Shown: positions 32,512 through 38,939 of the stretch, piece by piece | Layout of the letters: every line of letters starts with the position of its first letter | Position numbering within the stretch: position 1 is the stretch's first letter | Assembly: GCA_027451625.1 (NCBI GenBank) | Contig: DAIDIY010000007.1 | Span: 1-39,423 of the forward strand | Length of the DNA: 39,423 nt | Direction of reading: 5' to 3' | Origin: Candidatus Daviesbacteria bacterium | GTDB lineage: Bacteria > Patescibacteriota > Microgenomatia > Daviesbacterales > UBA10151 | Notes under the pieces: generated by a model | The model's input: the letters and a program-made list of their open reading frames with translations, nothing else | What the model was told of the DNA's origin: nothing | Databases searched by the model: none | Program-made: the position numbers and the translations under genes

Positions 32512-34224
32512 TTAAATCTCTAGTTCCAGTACTGCTACCCTTTTGTTAACATGAAATTTATCTGTTTGTCGGGGATGTATCTCAGCAATAAATCCGCTTT
32601 TTTTATCATTTAAAGTTAGCAGCATTGATTTTACTGGATGAAAATACTCTAATGGATAATTCTTTGGAGTTTCAGACTTAAATTCAAAATTAAGATTCAT
32701 TTTTTTCGCCACTTTTTTAAAAAGTTCAAAAAGCCTCTCCATCGGCTCAGAGGAGCTATCGGTCAAAAGAAGCGAAACGTGGTATCTCTCAACAGGAAGA
32801 AAACGTTGACTGAGATAAGTTTTTCCAATCTCAAAAATAGAGATTCTATCTCTAAATTTTAAGTTTTTAGCAGCTATTTCTAAAAGATTAGGCCAGATAT
32901 CTTCTCTTAAATATTTTGTTTCTTTAGATATAGGATTGGAGATTTTTACTAAATGATTTCTGTCCCAGGAGAAATGATTTATAACATCACTTGAAAAAAA
33001 GTGATAGGTTTGAATCTCGATTAATCCTTCTTCCGCTAAAGCCTGTTTTAAATTATATAGAAATTCATGGTCAACATCTTCTTTGGAATTTGGGTCTTTG
33101 AGAGTATTAATCTTTGTTTGATCGAAATTTATGATGTTTGCACCATTCCCTATGATATTTCGATAGTCAAACAGTCTAGCGATTTCTTCGATAAGATCTT
33201 CTTCTCTTAAAATATCTAAACGAAAATAAGGAACTTTAATTTCCCATACTTCAGGTTTAGTCTTTTTTACATCAAATCTTAATCTAGTTAAAAAGTTTTC
33301 TATCTTTTCATCACTAATATGAACACCGATTAGTGTGCGAACATGGCTTAAGTTAAGCTCTATAATATTTTCTTGTTCATCTAAATGATCATACAATGAA
33401 ATTTGTGTAAGTTTTCCACCAAGACTCAGATATCTCTTAATGGCACTGTTTAGTGCTTGCATTAATCTTCTCTTTGTTAATCCATGATAAAATCTTTTAC
33501 TTGCTTCTGAATGAAGTCCTAATCTATTAGAGGTCTTTCTTAAATGAACGGGATCAAAAATAGCTGCTTCTAGTAAAATTGAAGTAGTTGATTGTGTAAT
33601 CTCACTCTCCTCTCCTCCCATAACTCCTGCTATACCTAAAACTTTCATTTGATCAGCAATTACGATATCTCCTTTTTCAAGTATTCTTTTTTTGTGATCT
33701 AGTGTAGTAATCTTCTCAGCCGTACTAGTTTCTCTCACAATTATATGTTCATTATTTACTTTTTCGGCACTGAATGCGTGAAGTGGTTGACCATACTCAA
33801 GCATCACTAAGTTAGTTATATCTACTAAATTATTAACTCCTCGAAAGCCTGCCGCCTGAAGTTTTTCTAAATCTTCTGTTTTGGATGGTGTTACTTTTAA
33901 GTTATCTATTTTAGCTAAAGCATAGACTGGAACTAAAGGAGTTTGTATGTCAATTTTTAGATTTGGATAATTATCTTTTTCCCAGATATATTCTTTCTCT
34001 TCTTCAAAAAGAACTGGAGACTCGTTTAAAGCTGATATCTCATAAGCGACGCCTCTTAAAGAGAGCAAATCTGCTCGATTGTATCCTTTCATATCCAGTT
34101 CAAAGTGATCAGGAGTTACTTCTTTAATACCAATTGTTTTGTAGGATAGATCGTTAACATAATTATCAATAGGTACCTGAGGTTTAACAAATTCATCTTC
34201 CAGCCATTTAATAGGTACTTTCAT
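32512..34224 (-). CDS. pheT: Phenylalanyl-tRNA synthetase beta subunit, shortened
   Basis: A 570-residue beta subunit; bacterial PheT is usually near 790. It starts KVPIKWLEDEF (domain B1), goes straight into the B3/B4 core (GVNNLVDITNLVMLEYGQPLHAF), then B5 and the catalytic-like B6/B7 domain, and ends at FIAEIHPRQTDKFHVNKRVAVLELEI. Missing are the EMAP-like tRNA-binding domain inserted in B1 and the C-terminal ferredoxin-like anticodon-binding domain (B8). The frame is clean, so the loss is evolutionary reduction. It begins 3 nt after pheS. Editing residues in B3/B4 look retained. Confidence 0.93.
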   Translation of the reverse strand: MKVPIKWLEDEFVKPQVPIDNYVNDLSYKTIGIKEVTPDHFELDMKGYNRADLLSLRGVAYEISALNESPVLFEEEKEYIWEKDNYPNLKIDIQTPLVPVYALAKIDNLKVTPSKTEDLEKLQAAGFRGVNNLVDITNLVMLEYGQPLHAFSAEKVNNEHIIVRETSTAEKITTLDHKKRILEKGDIVIADQMKVLGIAGVMGGEESEITQSTTSILLEAAIFDPVHLRKTSNRLGLHSEASKRFYHGLTKRRLMQALNSAIKRYLSLGGKLTQISLYDHLDEQENIIELNLSHVRTLIGVHISDEKIENFLTRLRFDVKKTKPEVWEIKVPYFRLDILREEDLIEEIARLFDYRNIIGNGANIINFDQTKINTLKDPNSKEDVDHEFLYNLKQALAEEGLIEIQTYHFFSSDVINHFSWDRNHLVKISNPISKETKYLREDIWPNLLEIAAKNLKFRDRISIFEIGKTYLSQRFLPVERYHVSLLLTDSSSEPMERLFELFKKVAKKMNLNFEFKSETPKNYPLEYFHPVKSMLLTLNDKKSGFIAEIHPRQTDKFHVNKRVAVLELEI

Positions 34225-34227
34225 AGA

Positions 34228-35289
34228 TTACCGTTTCTCCTCAATCTCTAATTTTTCTAAAAAGTCTAGATCTCCATTCCTAAATAGCCGTAGATCATTG
34301 ATACCGTATTTGAGCATTAACATTCTTTCTGGTCCTATCCCCCAGGCAATTCCGCTGTATTCTTTAGGATTTATACCGGCATTTTCTAATACTTTAGGAT
34401 GAATCATTCCTGCACCTGCAAGCTCTATCCATCCTGTGTTCCCACAAATTTTGCAGCCTTGGCCTTTACAGAAAATGCATAAAGCGTCAATTCCCGCACC
34501 AGGTTCAACAAATGGGTAATATTTAGGTCTGAGTCGAGCTTTCATCTGTTGACCAAAGGCTTCTTTAAGATAATATTCGGATAGATATTGCAGATCAGCT
34601 AGGCTAAGATTTTTATCAACAAATACAAGCTCGAACTGATCGAAAGTATGTTCGTGTCTAGCATCAAGATTTTCATATCGAAAACTAGTCCCTATATTCA
34701 TAATTCTTATGGGAGGATTGTATCTTTTAAGAATTCTCAACTGAGAGTTGGAGGTATGAGTTCGAAGAAGTAGTTTTCCAGGCTGGATACCATATTTTTC
34801 GGAATCTATGTAAAGTGTGTCCCAAAGATCACGGGCTGGATGCTCTTCAGGTATATTCAGAGCTTCAAAATTATAATAATCTGTATCTATATAAGGGGCT
34901 TCAAATTGGGAGAAACCTATTTTTTTAAAAATATCGGCAGTTTGTCTTTCAAATACTGTTAAGGGATGAAGTTTTGCTTTGGGTAGAGTGAAATTTATCT
35001 TTTCATTAATGCTTAATGTTTCAGTAGAGAGCTTGGAGTAAGAATCCTCTTTTATCTGAGCTCTCTTTAATTCAATTTGTTCCGAAAGATAGTTTTTAAT
35101 CTTATTAAAAAGAGGAGAAATTATTTTGAGCTCTTCTTTTATAAGTTTAGAAAATTGTCTTGGCAGCAAAGTCATCTCTCCATTTTTTCCAAATAGATCA
35201 ATATAAATTAGATCAAGGTCTGAGAGATTTTTTGCTTGGTCTATTTTTTGTTTATACACAATTGATATTTGGTTAATTTTTTCTTCCAT
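34228..35289 (-). CDS. pheS: Phenylalanyl-tRNA synthetase alpha subunit
   Basis: A 353-residue class II synthetase of normal length: N-terminal coiled coil, then catalytic core with motif 2 (FRYENLDARHEHTFDQFE) and motif 3 (AWGIGPERMLML). The CIFCKGQGCKICGNTGWIE segment, a Cys-rich loop, is also found in Bacillus-type PheS. It forms the alpha2beta2 enzyme with PheT. Although it lies downstream of rplT, it has its own promoter at leaderless distance, so it can be expressed apart from the thrS-rplT part. Confidence 0.96.
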   Translation of the reverse strand: MEEKINQISIVYKQKIDQAKNLSDLDLIYIDLFGKNGEMTLLPRQFSKLIKEELKIISPLFNKIKNYLSEQIELKRAQIKEDSYSKLSTETLSINEKINFTLPKAKLHPLTVFERQTADIFKKIGFSQFEAPYIDTDYYNFEALNIPEEHPARDLWDTLYIDSEKYGIQPGKLLLRTHTSNSQLRILKRYNPPIRIMNIGTSFRYENLDARHEHTFDQFELVFVDKNLSLADLQYLSEYYLKEAFGQQMKARLRPKYYPFVEPGAGIDALCIFCKGQGCKICGNTGWIELAGAGMIHPKVLENAGINPKEYSGIAWGIGPERMLMLKYGINDLRLFRNGDLDFLEKLEIEEKR

Positions 35290-35295
35290 CAGCTG

Positions 35296-35324
35296 ATTTT
35301 AGCATAGATTAGGGACTACTCCAA
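35296..35324 (-). promoter_or_regulatory. Internal leaderless promoter of pheST
   Basis: Minus strand: TTGGAG (35319-35324), 17 bp, TAAAAT (35296-35301), then exactly 6 nt to the pheS ATG at 35289. Confidence 0.65.
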
Positions 35325-35387
35325 TTGGATTGTTAAGATAGGATGGACTCTTATGGAGAAAAGAGCTAAATACAACTTAAATGGCGG

Positions 35388-35732
35388 CTATTTTATTTCA
35401 GATACAATTTTTTTAAATGAGTCAAGGTTATTAACTGCAAGATCTGCAAGGACTTTGCGGTTTGCCGAGATACTTTTTGTCCTTAAGCCGGCTATAAACT
35501 TTGAATAAGAGATTCCTTCATCTTTTAGCGCACTATTTATCTGTGATATCCAAAGTCTTCTAAAATCGCGTTTCTTCTGTTTACGGCCTGCATAGGCATA
35601 TTGACCCGCATGAAGAACAGAAGACTTAGCCTGCTTAAAAAGTTTGCTTCTTCCACCAACAAACCCTTTGGCAAGGTTTAAAATTTTTTTATGCTTTCTA
35701 TGTGCTACTATTCCTCGTTTTACTCTTGGCAT
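35388..35732 (-). CDS. rplT: 50S ribosomal protein L20
   Basis: A 114-residue basic protein: MPRVKRGIVAHRKHKKILNLAKGFVGGRSKLFKQA and AGRKQKKRDFRRLWISQINSAL are diagnostic for L20. L20 represses its own operon in E. coli and Bacillus by binding leader RNA. It follows rpmI by 7 nt. About 100 nt of AT-rich sequence separates it from pheS, holding the pheS promoter. Confidence 0.96.
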   Translation of the reverse strand: MPRVKRGIVAHRKHKKILNLAKGFVGGRSKLFKQAKSSVLHAGQYAYAGRKQKKRDFRRLWISQINSALKDEGISYSKFIAGLRTKSISANRKVLADLAVNNLDSFKKIVSEIK

Positions 35733-35739
35733 ATTTTAT

Positions 35740-35940
35740 TTACGCTCTCCCTAAAAGTCTGTTAACACTTTTAGTAATTGTTTTGCTAAGGATAATAGGT
35801 CTTTTATGGCGTCTTAACGCTTGTTTACTCTTATTCCTTCTCAAATGGCCCGAACGAAACTGATGAGAGATAATTATCTTTCCTCTCTTTGATATCTTTA
35901 TTTTTTTTAATAAAATTTTTTTAGTTTTTACTTTTGGCAT
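35740..35940 (-). CDS. rpmI: 50S ribosomal protein L35
   Basis: A 66-residue, very basic protein: PKVKTKKILLKKIKISKRGKI..., GHLRRNKSKQALRRHKRPI and a final VNRLLGRA match L35. It starts 9 nt after the infC stop, in the universal infC-rpmI-rplT order. Confidence 0.93.
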   Translation of the reverse strand: MPKVKTKKILLKKIKISKRGKIIISHQFRSGHLRRNKSKQALRRHKRPIILSKTITKSVNRLLGRA

Positions 35941-35949
35941 AGTTTATTT

Positions 35950-36486
35950 TTAAGTTAATTGATTTTCAACAGACTCAGCTGATTTAGATTTTCCAATTAT
36001 CGTTGTTAGATTTCTTCCTTCAAATTTAGTTTCCCTTTCAACTGAGATTTTCTCTCCCAAATAAGCCAATGCATGGTCTACTACTTGTTTTCCTTGTTCT
36101 GGATGAGCCATCTCTCGCCCTCTAAATTTGATTGTAAGTTTAACTTTATTACCTTTATCCAAAAACTCCTCTGCCTTTCTCAGTCTTATCTCCAGATCAT
36201 GGGAGGCAATCCGAGGAGAGAGCCAAATCTCTTTTAACTCAACTTCTTTAGCTCTTTTCCTTGCCGCCTGCTCTTTCTTCCCTTCTGTATATCTAAATTT
36301 TTGGAAATCGATGATCTTAGCAACGGGTGGATTAGCAGCAGCTGCCACCTCAACTAAGTCTAATCCTTGCTCTTGCGCGAGTTTTAATGCTTCTTCTTTG
36401 CTTATAACTCCTAACTGAGTTCCATCAGCATTTATTACTCGAAGACTCAGAGCTTGGATTCTATCATTTAGACGATAGTACTTAAT
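35950..36486 (-). CDS. infC: Translation initiation factor IF-3 with an AUU start codon
   Basis: 178 residues when started at ATT 36484-36486. The protein then begins (M)KYYRLNDRIQALSLRVINADG, the normal IF-3 N-terminus, and is full length. The only upstream signal is a perfect AGGAGG at 36493-36498, 6 nt before the ATT, and no ATG, GTG or TTG is usable there. The first ATG/GTG/TTG start lies at 36348 and would remove the N-terminal domain. AUU starts are known for infC in E. coli, where IF-3 represses its own mRNA by rejecting the non-canonical start. I infer the same control here. The C-terminal domain (KLTIKFRGREMAHPEQG) is standard. Confidence 0.93.
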   Translation of the reverse strand: MKYYRLNDRIQALSLRVINADGTQLGVISKEEALKLAQEQGLDLVEVAAAANPPVAKIIDFQKFRYTEGKKEQAARKRAKEVELKEIWLSPRIASHDLEIRLRKAEEFLDKGNKVKLTIKFRGREMAHPEQGKQVVDHALAYLGEKISVERETKFEGRNLTTIIGKSKSAESVENQLT

Positions 36487-36565: not shown

Positions 36566-38329
36566 TTAGTTTTTAGATTCAATCTCAGTTTGAAGTTGAT
36601 CAATAAATTTATTTAGAGGTACTGCCCCTAGGTCTTTTCCTTCTCTTGTTCTTATTGAGACAGTATTATTTTCTTCCTCTCTTCCTCCAACTATTGCCAT
36701 ATAAGGAATCTTCATTAGCTGAGCATCTCTTATCTTGCCCTGCATCTTTTCATTTCGCAAATCGGCATCGGCTCGAATATCTTTTTCTCGAAGTTTAATA
36801 TTTATTACCTCAGCATATTTATTACTTTTATCAGAGACAGGTACGATCTCTACTTGAATTGGAGATAACCATAAAGGAAAGGCTCCCGAAAAGTGTTCAA
36901 TCAAAAAAGCAATAAGCCTTTCTATAGCTCCAATAGATGACCGGTGGACAACTATTGCTTCCTCTTCTCTACCAGCTTCATTTATATAATTTAAATGAAA
37001 TCTCTTAGGCATTACAAAATCATATTGGACTGTGAAAGCAGTGTCCTCTTTACCATGAATATTTTTCATCTGAATATCAATCTTTGGACCATAAAATGCT
37101 GCTTCCCCGTTTGCTTCGACAAAAGGTACAGAACGGCTTTTTAGTACATCTCTGAGAATATTTTCCGCTTCATTCCAGGCTTTGTCATCTTTATAATATT
37201 TTTTTTCATCATTTCTATCGCCTAAAGACAATCTATAATAATAATCCCCTCCAGCTTTAAGATGAAATACTGAAGCTAAGTATTCTATTAGTTCTAAAGC
37301 TCCGCCGATCTCTGCTTTAGCTTGATCTGGTCTTGCTATAATATGCGCATCGGCTAAAGTAAATGCGCGAACTCGTAAAAGTCCCATTAGCTCTCCCGAT
37401 TTTTCATAACGGTAGAGCTTTGCTAATTCTGCATATCGTATAGGCAATTCTTTATAAGAATGTGGCTTAGAAAGATAAAGCTCAAAATGATGAGGACAAG
37501 TCATGGGTCTTAGCATATATTCTTCATCCTCAATCTGTATTGGTGCATACATTGATTCTTTATAATAAGGATAATGACCTGACTTTTTATATAATTCTAA
37601 TGAAGCAATATCAGGAGTTATAACATGCTTGTATCCCCGTTTTATCTCTTCATCAGTTATAAATCTTTCTAGTATTCGGCGAATTGTGGCTCCTTTTTCA
37701 GTCCATAGAGGAAGACCTTTGCCTACCGTTTCAGAAAACGTAAACAAATCTAACTCTCGTCCTAATTTTTTATGATCTCTTTTTTCGATTTCAGTTAATT
37801 TTTGTAAATAGTTGTCTAGTTCATCCTGAGTTGGAAAAGCAGTTCCATAAATACGAGTTAACATCTTATTTTTTTCATTTCCTCTCCAGTACGCTCCAGC
37901 TATCGATAGAAGCTTGAATGCTTTTAGCTCTTCTGATGGATGTTCCACATGTCCTCCTTTGCACAGATCAATGAATCCACCCGACTCATATAAGCTAAGA
38001 GTTTTCCCCTCTTTTACAAATTCATCTATAAGCTCTAATTTATATGGATTATGAGCAAAGATTTTTTTTGCCTCTTCAGGGCTTATTTCTTTGTGTGTAA
38101 ACTCTATCCAATTTGAAAGGAGTTGAGACATTCTCTTCTCGACTTCTTTTAGGTCTTCCTCTTTTATAGGTTCTTTAAAGTCAAAATCATAATAAAAGCC
38201 ATTTTCGATAACAGGCCCGATAGTGTTCTTAGTTTCTGGATAAAGATCCAAAACAGCTGCAGCAAGTAAATGGGCTGCTGAATGTCTAAGATGCTCTAAA
38301 TAAGTGTTATTAGATTGAGTTTGTTCCAT
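36566..38329 (-). CDS. thrS: Threonyl-tRNA synthetase lacking the TGS domain
   Basis: 587 residues from ATG 38329. An upstream ATG at 38353 lies inside the terminator hairpin and is rejected. The protein starts almost directly with the editing domain (HSAAH, residues 16-20; later CKGGH); the N-terminal TGS domain of E. coli ThrRS is absent. The class II core has the zinc ligands in MTCPHHFELYLS, RVRAFTLADAHI and VVHRSSIGAIERL, and a C-terminal anticodon-binding domain (LSPIQVEIVPVSD). It is first gene of thrS-infC-rpmI-rplT-pheS-pheT, controlled by a T-box. The ATG follows an 8-T run directly; AGGG in the hairpin arm may serve as ribosome site when the hairpin is open. Confidence 0.95.
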   Translation of the reverse strand: MEQTQSNNTYLEHLRHSAAHLLAAAVLDLYPETKNTIGPVIENGFYYDFDFKEPIKEEDLKEVEKRMSQLLSNWIEFTHKEISPEEAKKIFAHNPYKLELIDEFVKEGKTLSLYESGGFIDLCKGGHVEHPSEELKAFKLLSIAGAYWRGNEKNKMLTRIYGTAFPTQDELDNYLQKLTEIEKRDHKKLGRELDLFTFSETVGKGLPLWTEKGATIRRILERFITDEEIKRGYKHVITPDIASLELYKKSGHYPYYKESMYAPIQIEDEEYMLRPMTCPHHFELYLSKPHSYKELPIRYAELAKLYRYEKSGELMGLLRVRAFTLADAHIIARPDQAKAEIGGALELIEYLASVFHLKAGGDYYYRLSLGDRNDEKKYYKDDKAWNEAENILRDVLKSRSVPFVEANGEAAFYGPKIDIQMKNIHGKEDTAFTVQYDFVMPKRFHLNYINEAGREEEAIVVHRSSIGAIERLIAFLIEHFSGAFPLWLSPIQVEIVPVSDKSNKYAEVINIKLREKDIRADADLRNEKMQGKIRDAQLMKIPYMAIVGGREEENNTVSIRTREGKDLGAVPLNKFIDQLQTEIESKN

Positions 38330-38369
38330 AAAAAAAACCCTGCTCCACATCATTGATGCTGGATCAGGG
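38330..38369 (-). terminator. T-box terminator in front of thrS
   Basis: Minus strand: CCCTG...CAGGG hairpin (38338-38369) with inner TCCA/TGGA pairs and a loop near 38350, followed by eight Ts (38330-38337). Its 5' CCC (38367-38369) is shared with the antiterminator, so only one of the two can form. Confidence 0.88.
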
Positions 38370-38481
38370 ACCTTAAATAGTACTCAAGGTGGTTCCACCC
38401 CGACATTATACTCTTGGAATTAATATCGTTTTTCCTTACGGAAAGCTCCAAAGGTGGTAAGTCTTTATCAACGCTCTCTAT
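38367..38481 (-). ncRNA. Compact T-box riboswitch (tRNA-Thr sensor) of thrS
   Basis: Antiterminator: GGG (38399-38401 region) pairs with CCC 38367-38369; a 7-nt bulge TGGAACC follows, then ACCTT (38386-38390) pairs with AAGGT (38370-38374). UGGA in the bulge would pair with an uncharged 3' UCCA end, implying U73 on tRNA-Thr. Upstream, CGTT (38470-38473) and AACG (38427-38430) can close a short stem I that contains two ACC threonine codons (38456-38458, 38453-38455) and a TTTCC-GTAA-GGAAA hairpin. Total leader is only about 150 nt, with no room for classical stems II and III. Uncharged tRNA-Thr would favour readthrough into thrS. Confidence 0.85.
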
Positions 38482-38487
38482 AAAACA

Positions 38488-38516
38488 ATCTTACTTTAGA
38501 GGAAATTTTTTGTCAA
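38488..38516 (-). promoter_or_regulatory. Promoter of the thrS operon
   Basis: Minus strand: perfect TTGACA (38511-38516), 17 bp, TAAGAT (38488-38493). Start expected near 38481. The -35 abuts the stop codon of the upstream gene. Confidence 0.75.
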
Positions 38517-38865: not shown

Positions 38866-38939
38866 GGGCGGTTAGCTCAGCTGGTATGAGCGTGTGATTG
38901 ACGTTCACAAGGTCGCAGGTTCGATCCCTGCACCGCCCA
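38866..38939 (+). tRNA. tRNA-Val (GAC)
   Basis: 74 nt. Acceptor GGGCGGT pairs fully with ACCGCCC, A73, CCA not encoded. D arm GCTC/GAGC, anticodon arm TGTGA-TTGACGT-TCACA with anticodon GAC, T arm GCAGG-TTCGATC-CCTGC. Position 37 is G where tRNA-Val usually has A. A possible promoter is TTTATA (38828-38833), 17 bp, TAATAT (38851-38856). Confidence 0.95.

Follow-up and report, generated by a model that had tools for sequence, protein, structure and literature searches.

The leader of thrS, the gene for threonine--tRNA ligase, in a Candidatus Daviesbacteria genome is very likely a T-box riboswitch of reduced, minimal form that senses tRNA-Thr. The element reads directly as a transcriptional T-box of about 150 nt and lies at 38330-38516 on the minus strand of the window, i.e. 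the whole stretch of 39,423 nucleotides that was analysed. What has been shown is the sequence itself, the covariation of its helices, the cognate specifiers present in the same element before other genes, and the matching discriminator bases of the tRNAs. We regard it as a known regulator in a structurally new version, one that is widespread among Patescibacteria and, provisionally, undescribed; the open-access full text that was searched held nothing on T-boxes together with Patescibacteria, Parcubacteria or the candidate phyla radiation, subscription papers being outside the scope of that search.

Architecture of the thrS leader

The features of the leader and of the adjacent genes are collected in Table 1. 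The promoter hexamers match the consensus at 10 of 12 positions (consensus scan) and, judging from sequence alone, the transcript is expected to start just 5' of Stem I. Because the promoter places the start there, no longer Stem I is hidden upstream. The identity of thrS is supported by a TIGR00418 score of 660 bits against a cut-off of 384 (NCBIfam), and its start codon, ATG at 38329, abuts the U-run of the terminator. It should be noted that the thrS frame stays open upstream across the terminator (window 38327-38353, minus strand: ATG ATG TGG AGC AGG GTT TTT TTT ATG), and automatic annotation may therefore set the start of thrS eight codons too early. The source genome is a draft assembly of 51 contigs. 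Cotranscription of infC, rpmI, rplT, pheS and pheT with thrS is possible, but only inferred.

Table 1. Positions, in the window, of the elements of the thrS leader and of the genes that follow it.
Feature	Position	Strand	Evidence or remark
-35 hexamer TTGACA	38511..38516	(-)	sequence and consensus scan
-10 hexamer TAAGAT, 17-nt spacer	38488..38493	(-)	sequence and consensus scan
Ultrashort Stem I, 38 nt	38441..38478	(-)	covariation (53 thrS leaders), ungapped check, GA/GA in family
Specifier ACC (Thr) in apical loop ACUU-ACC-AC	38456..38458	(-)	leaders of relatives; cognate codons at this position upstream of other genes
Mini hairpin GGAA/UUCC, between Stem I and discriminator, in the place of Stem II	38416..38435	(-)	covariation
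Purine-rich linker AAGAGUAUAAUGUCG	38401..38415	(-)	alignment A1; family consensus AAAGAGUAUAAU
T-box antiterminator	38367..38400	(-)	sequence, covariation, folding, core count
Helix A1, GGG with CCC	38400-38398 with 38369-38367	(-)	
T-box bulge TGGAACC, 7 nt	38397-38391	(-)	UGGN-ACC type
Helix A2, ACCTT with AAGGT	38390-38386 with 38374-38370	(-)	
Terminator hairpin CCCUG...CAGGG	38338..38369	(-)	3' arm GGAGCAGGG where a ribosome site would be
Terminator arms CCCTG / CAGGG	38369-38365 / 38342-38338	(-)	
Terminator U-run, 8 U, then thrS start codon	38330..38337	(-)	sequence; arrangement conserved
thrS, threonine--tRNA ligase, presumed regulated gene	36566..38329	(-)	NCBIfam TIGR00418
Same-strand genes downstream of thrS (infC, rpmI, rplT, pheS, pheT)	32512..36348	(-)	
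infC	35950-36348	(-)	NCBIfam
pheS	34228-35289	(-)	NCBIfam
rpmI, rplT, pheT	within 32512..36348	(-)	sequence and gene order

Stem I consists of a lower helix of 6 bp (GAGAGC/GCUUUC), an internal loop with the sequence of a K-turn (GUU bulge, GA/GA) and an upper helix of 5 bp (UAAAG/CUUUG), topped by a 9-nt apical loop that carries the specifier; a second ACC reaches into the upper helix on its 3' side. The elbow-binding distal part of Stem I (the interdigitated double T-loop motif) is absent from this leader, whose Stem I has only 38 nt and whose promoter lies directly upstream. Absent as well are a Stem II with S-turn and the IIA/B pseudoknot, the 43 nt from Stem I to the T-box bulge containing one 4-bp hairpin. 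In the covariation analysis of thrS leaders this mini hairpin was 91.7% paired, with double changes in 4/4 pairs.

The loop of the mini hairpin can also pair over 8 bp with the bases before helix A1 (CGAUAUUA/UAAUGUCG, window 38401-38428, minus strand). A pseudoknot between loop and linker is conceivable, with weak support in relatives (123 of 3000 permutations reached the observed score in 11 members).

The window contains the exact antiterminator core GGGTGGAACC a single time, while shuffles predict 0.01 copies. At the foot of helix A2 the canonical G-U is A-U here, and it is variable in relatives. Two other GGGTGGCACC sites in the source genome (L003, L004) gave no model match and were taken as chance occurrences.

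The CCC that forms the 3' strand of helix A1 is common to antiterminator and terminator. The terminator, which a simple terminator scan misses because its stem is bulged, is the more stable of the two (-16.6 vs -10.0 kcal/mol, ViennaRNA), and the 11 nearest leaders gave -10 to -17 kcal/mol for the terminator and -5 to -10 kcal/mol for the antiterminator. Such energies are what one would expect of a switch whose default state is off and whose antiterminator has to be held by tRNA. When the complete leader is folded without tRNA, the structure of lowest energy lacks Stem I, the ACCACC of which pairs instead with GGGUGG of the T-box; this pairing could be an extra lock on the off state, which is untested.

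In 10/11 family members the ATG lies 0-4 nt past the U-run, and the 3' arm of the terminator is often GGAGG- or AGGAGG-like among the 11. The terminator hairpin may therefore also hide the ribosome site and so add a second level of control. This inference is less certain for the window leader, where the Shine-Dalgarno match is weak (only GGAG or AGGG).

The original prediction, made from this sequence without database searches, had described the promoter TTGACA-17-TAAGAT, an exact T-box antiterminator, a shared CCC and a terminator with eight T, all of which held in the minus-strand sequence. Its reading as a compact transcriptional T-box before thrS held in substance, the function being inferred, and so did the absence of a classical Stem II and IIA/B, in whose place one 4-bp mini hairpin is found. 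Two claims held only in part: both of the in-line ACC codons are present, but the relatives point to a single specifier (38458-38456), and the one short stem upstream is more structured than was supposed, with K-turn sequence in its internal loop. Double control, with the terminator arm acting as ribosome site, remains plausible on the ATG spacing.

Conservation and covariation in relatives

The same plan is found upstream of thrS in related genomes, of which those with named contigs are Daviesbacteria, Gottesmanbacteria and other Patescibacteria MAGs. Affiliation was inferred from sequence identity to such contigs (Daviesbacteria ND2_Bin_11 for the same family, Gottesmanbacteria for the same class). 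An alignment of seven leaders (alignment A1) shows the 6-bp helix, an internal loop GUUGAU/GGA, the upper helix, the 9-nt loop with an invariant ACC, the mini hairpin, the linker AAAGAGUAUAAU and the T-box. In it the upper helix AAAG/CUUU is exchanged for UGAG/CUCA, GAAG/CUUC, AGAG/CUCU and UAAG/CUUA. With three bulged bases and G-A on both strands, the internal loop reads as a K-turn, a structure that is inferred. GA/GA is present in 11/11 family members; elsewhere in the class other families have a different internal loop, and only some of them show GA on both strands.

A covariance model built from the seven thrS leaders only (R1) matched 16/45 genomes of the family and, beyond its training set, found further thrS leaders as well as leaders of valS-, trpE- and argH-type genes, among them the valS leader of the source genome. 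A second model, built from 24 matches (R2), matched 178/374 class genomes when E up to 0.01 was allowed and, with E up to 1e-4, 48/287 genomes of a phylum sample. The E-values of both models are rough, and the class-wide matches near E=0.01 include false ones, because 208 kb of thrS loci without the T-box motif, used as a negative control, gave one weak match of 27 bits.

Strong covariation was observed among 53 aligned thrS leaders, in which 94.4% of cells were paired vs 57.8% in shuffles, a value reached by 0/500 shuffles. Two-sided changes occurred in 21/21 pairs (416 cells vs 121 in shuffles), the covariation score was 0.94 vs 0.25, and sliding the partners by one to three columns left a pairing of at most 54.6%. 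The antiterminator helices A1 (GGG/CCC) and A2 were 98.7% and 96.7% paired, respectively, with changes on both sides in every pair. Because the 53-leader alignment had been fitted to the model structure, as is true of alignments A2 and A3, a comparison anchored on ACC-A and free of gaps was added; positions -6/+6 to -8/+8 pair in 42-48 of its 52 sequences, with several pair types, and the upper helix of Stem I thus covaries here too.

The thrS leaders outside the family of the window (L197, L200, L202, L207, L214, L222, L235, L261 and others) have a different terminator layout, in which the arm ahead of the U-run has its pairing partner 5' of the T-box (e.g. CCACC/GGUGG, GUCACG/CGUGGC, AGCGUC/GACGCU), and the terminator therefore encloses the whole antiterminator hairpin. 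This pairing exceeds that of permuted partners (268 vs 224, sd 7, 0/1000), and how such a terminator would be opened is unexplained.

In one related Patescibacteria genome, a TPP riboswitch above the Rfam cut-off was observed upstream of thrS (L092 433-542 / L200 709-818).

Specifier codons before other genes

The first gene was read after about 75 leaders, and representatives were annotated as thrS, glyS, glyA, aspS, proS, proB, ileS, valS, serS, trpS, trpE and argH. A finder of K-turn hairpins that was blind to the codon showed the cognate codon in 15/16 non-thrS leaders, while permuted genes gave a mean of 5.4 (p=4e-5). The finder was loosened once and placed the hairpin in only 16/29 annotated leaders, and the 15/16 covers those only. 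It had been substituted for a free hairpin finder lacking the K-turn constraint, which was too permissive (9/28 cognate, permutation mean 2.9).

The cognate loop codons are GGC before glyS and glyA, GAC before aspS, CCC or CCU before proS and proB, AUC before ileS, GUC before valS, UGG before trpE and CGC before argH; the specifiers of trpS (L271) and of valS in the source genome (L131) were read by eye. Moreover, three specifiers called before the gene was known proved correct, i.e. GUC for a valS-like (L126), GGC for a glyS-like (L244) and CCC for a proS-like gene (L258), although these synthetase genes were identified by N-terminal sequence only. In our view, nothing supports the role of the hairpin as tRNA-reading domain more strongly than the codon-blind recovery of cognate specifiers, tRNA binding itself being inferred.

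The valS element is a second short-Stem-I T-box of the source genome (G000:C5:45720-45850), with specifier GUC and T-box UGGU, and its gene was confirmed at L174 5892-6788. By eye, it has a longer middle section with an S-turn-like GAAGAAA...UAGA and a GGGC..GCCC element, and it may keep a Stem II region. The gene of the tRNA-Val(GAC) that would serve this T-box lies in the window (38866-38939, plus strand), about 350 bases upstream of the thrS promoter and on the opposite strand.

The presumed tRNA partners

In the T-box the bases are UGGA where the amino acid is Thr or Gly, UGGU where it is Val, and UGGC in trpE and trpS leaders. The fourth of these bases is complementary to base 73 of the tRNA, UGGA matching U73 of tRNA-Thr in the source genome and in relatives, UGGU matching A73 of tRNA-Val and UGGC matching G73 of tRNA-Trp. 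Among source-genome tRNAs, tRNA-Thr(UGU), tRNA-Thr(CGU) and tRNA-Gly have U73, tRNA-Val A73 and tRNA-Trp G73; all tRNA-Thr(GGU) genes read in relatives carry U73.

An uninterrupted tRNA-Thr(GGU) was not found by pattern search in the source genome, because the gene is interrupted by an intron. BLAST with the gene of a relative as query located its halves about 200 bases apart on contig C10 (L306, G000:C10:20100-20750, minus strand). The insertion follows directly after the anticodon (CUUGGU / AAUCG...AAGCG / AAGAACGG) and shows group I features, with U before it and G at its end; the match to Intron_gpI RF00028 is sub-threshold (19 bits, E 0.019, Rfam). On these grounds a group I intron is inferred as the likely identity of the insertion. 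The mature tRNA has U73 and, since this presumed ligand is split after its anticodon, the switch could sense the spliced tRNA only.

The outcomes that would have refuted the original prediction were named beforehand, and neither was met: the GGG/CCC and A2 helices covary in relatives, and the tRNA-Thr genes carry a discriminator, U73, able to pair with UGGA. The tRNA-Thr with GGU anticodon that it called for is present, although interrupted. The scan of the leader with the Rfam T-box model RF00230 was run and was negative. The assignment to a Patescibacteria-like genome was borne out by the named contigs of relatives, but the element is no lone case and belongs to a clade-wide family.

Alternative explanations

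The alternative that survives best, though we consider it unlikely, is a T-box acting on translation only, with the ribosome site masked by the CCCUG/CAGGG hairpin and the U-run serving merely as spacer to the ATG. In its favour are the start codon 0-4 nt past the U-run in 10/11 members, a 3' arm that often contains GGAGG or AGGAGG, and the fact that known short-Stem-I T-boxes are mostly translational (PMC7583486, PMC10482949). However, 5-8 U directly behind a hairpin of -10 to -17 kcal/mol are kept in 11/11 members, in other thrS leaders, as upstream of many other genes, tens of bases separate hairpin and U-run from the start codon, and the ribosome-site match of the window leader is weak.

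Two further explanations are all but excluded. E. coli thrS is autoregulated by ThrRS through tRNA mimicry, and the leader could likewise be a ThrRS binding site, given that the gene is thrS and that the hairpin shows three bases important for tRNA-Thr. However, the loop carries the codon ACC and not the anticodon GGU, and with other codons the element also stands before valS, glyS, aspS, proS, ileS, trpE and argH, the specifier swaps following the gene. A peptide-leader attenuator, with ribosomes stalling at Thr codons, would account for ACCACC followed by a terminator, but there is no conserved open frame around the codons, and every relative has a single codon per leader, always at the same position of a covarying hairpin loop and followed by a T-box bulge.

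Proposed mechanism and implications

In the T-box reading, which remains our preferred one, tRNA binding, sensing of aminoacylation, termination and the effect on translation are all inferred. The apical loop of the Stem I hairpin would offer ACC for pairing with the tRNA-Thr anticodon GGU, and the U73-CCA end of an uncharged tRNA would pair with UGGA of the T-box bulge, stabilising the antiterminator (GGG/CCC and A2). While the antiterminator is held, RNA polymerase would continue into thrS. With charged tRNA, or with none bound, the more stable terminator would take the CCC, and transcription would stop at the U-run beside the start codon; in RNA that escapes termination, the ribosome site would be locked in the same hairpin. 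As the thrS element has neither of the known tRNA clamps, its binding strength is unproven. Also counting against this reading are the missing RF00230 match, the A-U pair at the foot of A2, the fitting of alignments to the model structure and the tRNA-free fold that lacks Stem I.

Patescibacteria, with genomes of about 1 Mb, are regarded as poor in regulators. The data point to candidate short T-boxes in close to half of the class genomes sampled, most of them unreported by the standard model. The question of how little RNA can read a tRNA and its charging state, in the short time left before a transcription decision, becomes directly testable. Being short (about 120-150 nt with the terminator), these elements lend themselves to structural studies and to use as synthetic tRNA sensors.

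Comparison with known T-boxes

The T-boxes described by RF00230 share with the thrS leader the antiterminator with its UGGN-ACC bulge, the competition with a terminator and the position upstream of aminoacyl-tRNA synthetase genes. They differ in that the thrS leader goes undetected by that model and its relatives stay under the cut-off. No match was obtained in the window at the gathering score or at E up to 10 (Rfam scan), because the element is too short for the model, nor at E up to 5 in six Patescibacteria leaders of the same architecture and six related ones. In a later set of 20, six relatives scored 29-54 bits, under the 93-bit cut-off, and the window leader was again unmatched. RF00230 exceeded its cut-off in 18/351 genomes of the class, and therefore longer T-boxes also exist in these bacteria.

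Four classes of T-boxes have been distinguished, in which binding is helped by an elbow-contacting distal Stem I motif, by the S-turn of Stem II, or by both (PMC10482949). Class II (Bacillus subtilis glyQS; PMC10482949) resembles the thrS element in being transcriptional, in lacking Stem II and in having a linker from Stem I to the discriminator; however, it is glycine-specific and keeps a long Stem I with the elbow-binding motif, whereas the thrS element is Thr-specific and its Stem I has 38 nt. Short-Stem-I Gly versions were also found (e.g. L204).

With Class III (ileS of Nocardia farcinica and Mycobacterium tuberculosis; PMC10482949, PMC7583486) the thrS element shares a short Stem I without the elbow-binding motif, a specifier in the apical loop, a K-turn in Stem I and a standard T-box discriminator. 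Class III members, however, need a Stem II with S-turn and the IIA/B pseudoknot, are mostly translational and have a loop of 5-6 nt, while the thrS element has a transcription terminator, a 9-nt loop and, where Stem II would be, only a mini hairpin. Of the two elements of the source genome, that of valS is nearer to Class III, its Stem II being read by eye, and yet has a terminator; the Class III-like status of the non-Thr leaders was likewise judged by eye.

A bolder reading, towards which the balance of evidence leans slightly, is that Patescibacteria possess, in their thrS (and glyS) leaders, one more structural class of T-box. Taken as one joint claim, it combines a hairpin with K-turn and apical-loop specifier, no elbow-binding distal Stem I, no S-turn Stem II and transcriptional action, with, in the family of the window, a terminator that doubles as a lock on the ribosome site directly before the start codon. 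If true, the published rule that every T-box relies on at least one of the two tRNA clamps would no longer hold. Transcriptional T-boxes are described as generally needing a long Stem I, i.e. the elbow clamp, for fast binding (PMC7583486); unlike these, the Patescibacteria elements appear to manage without it.
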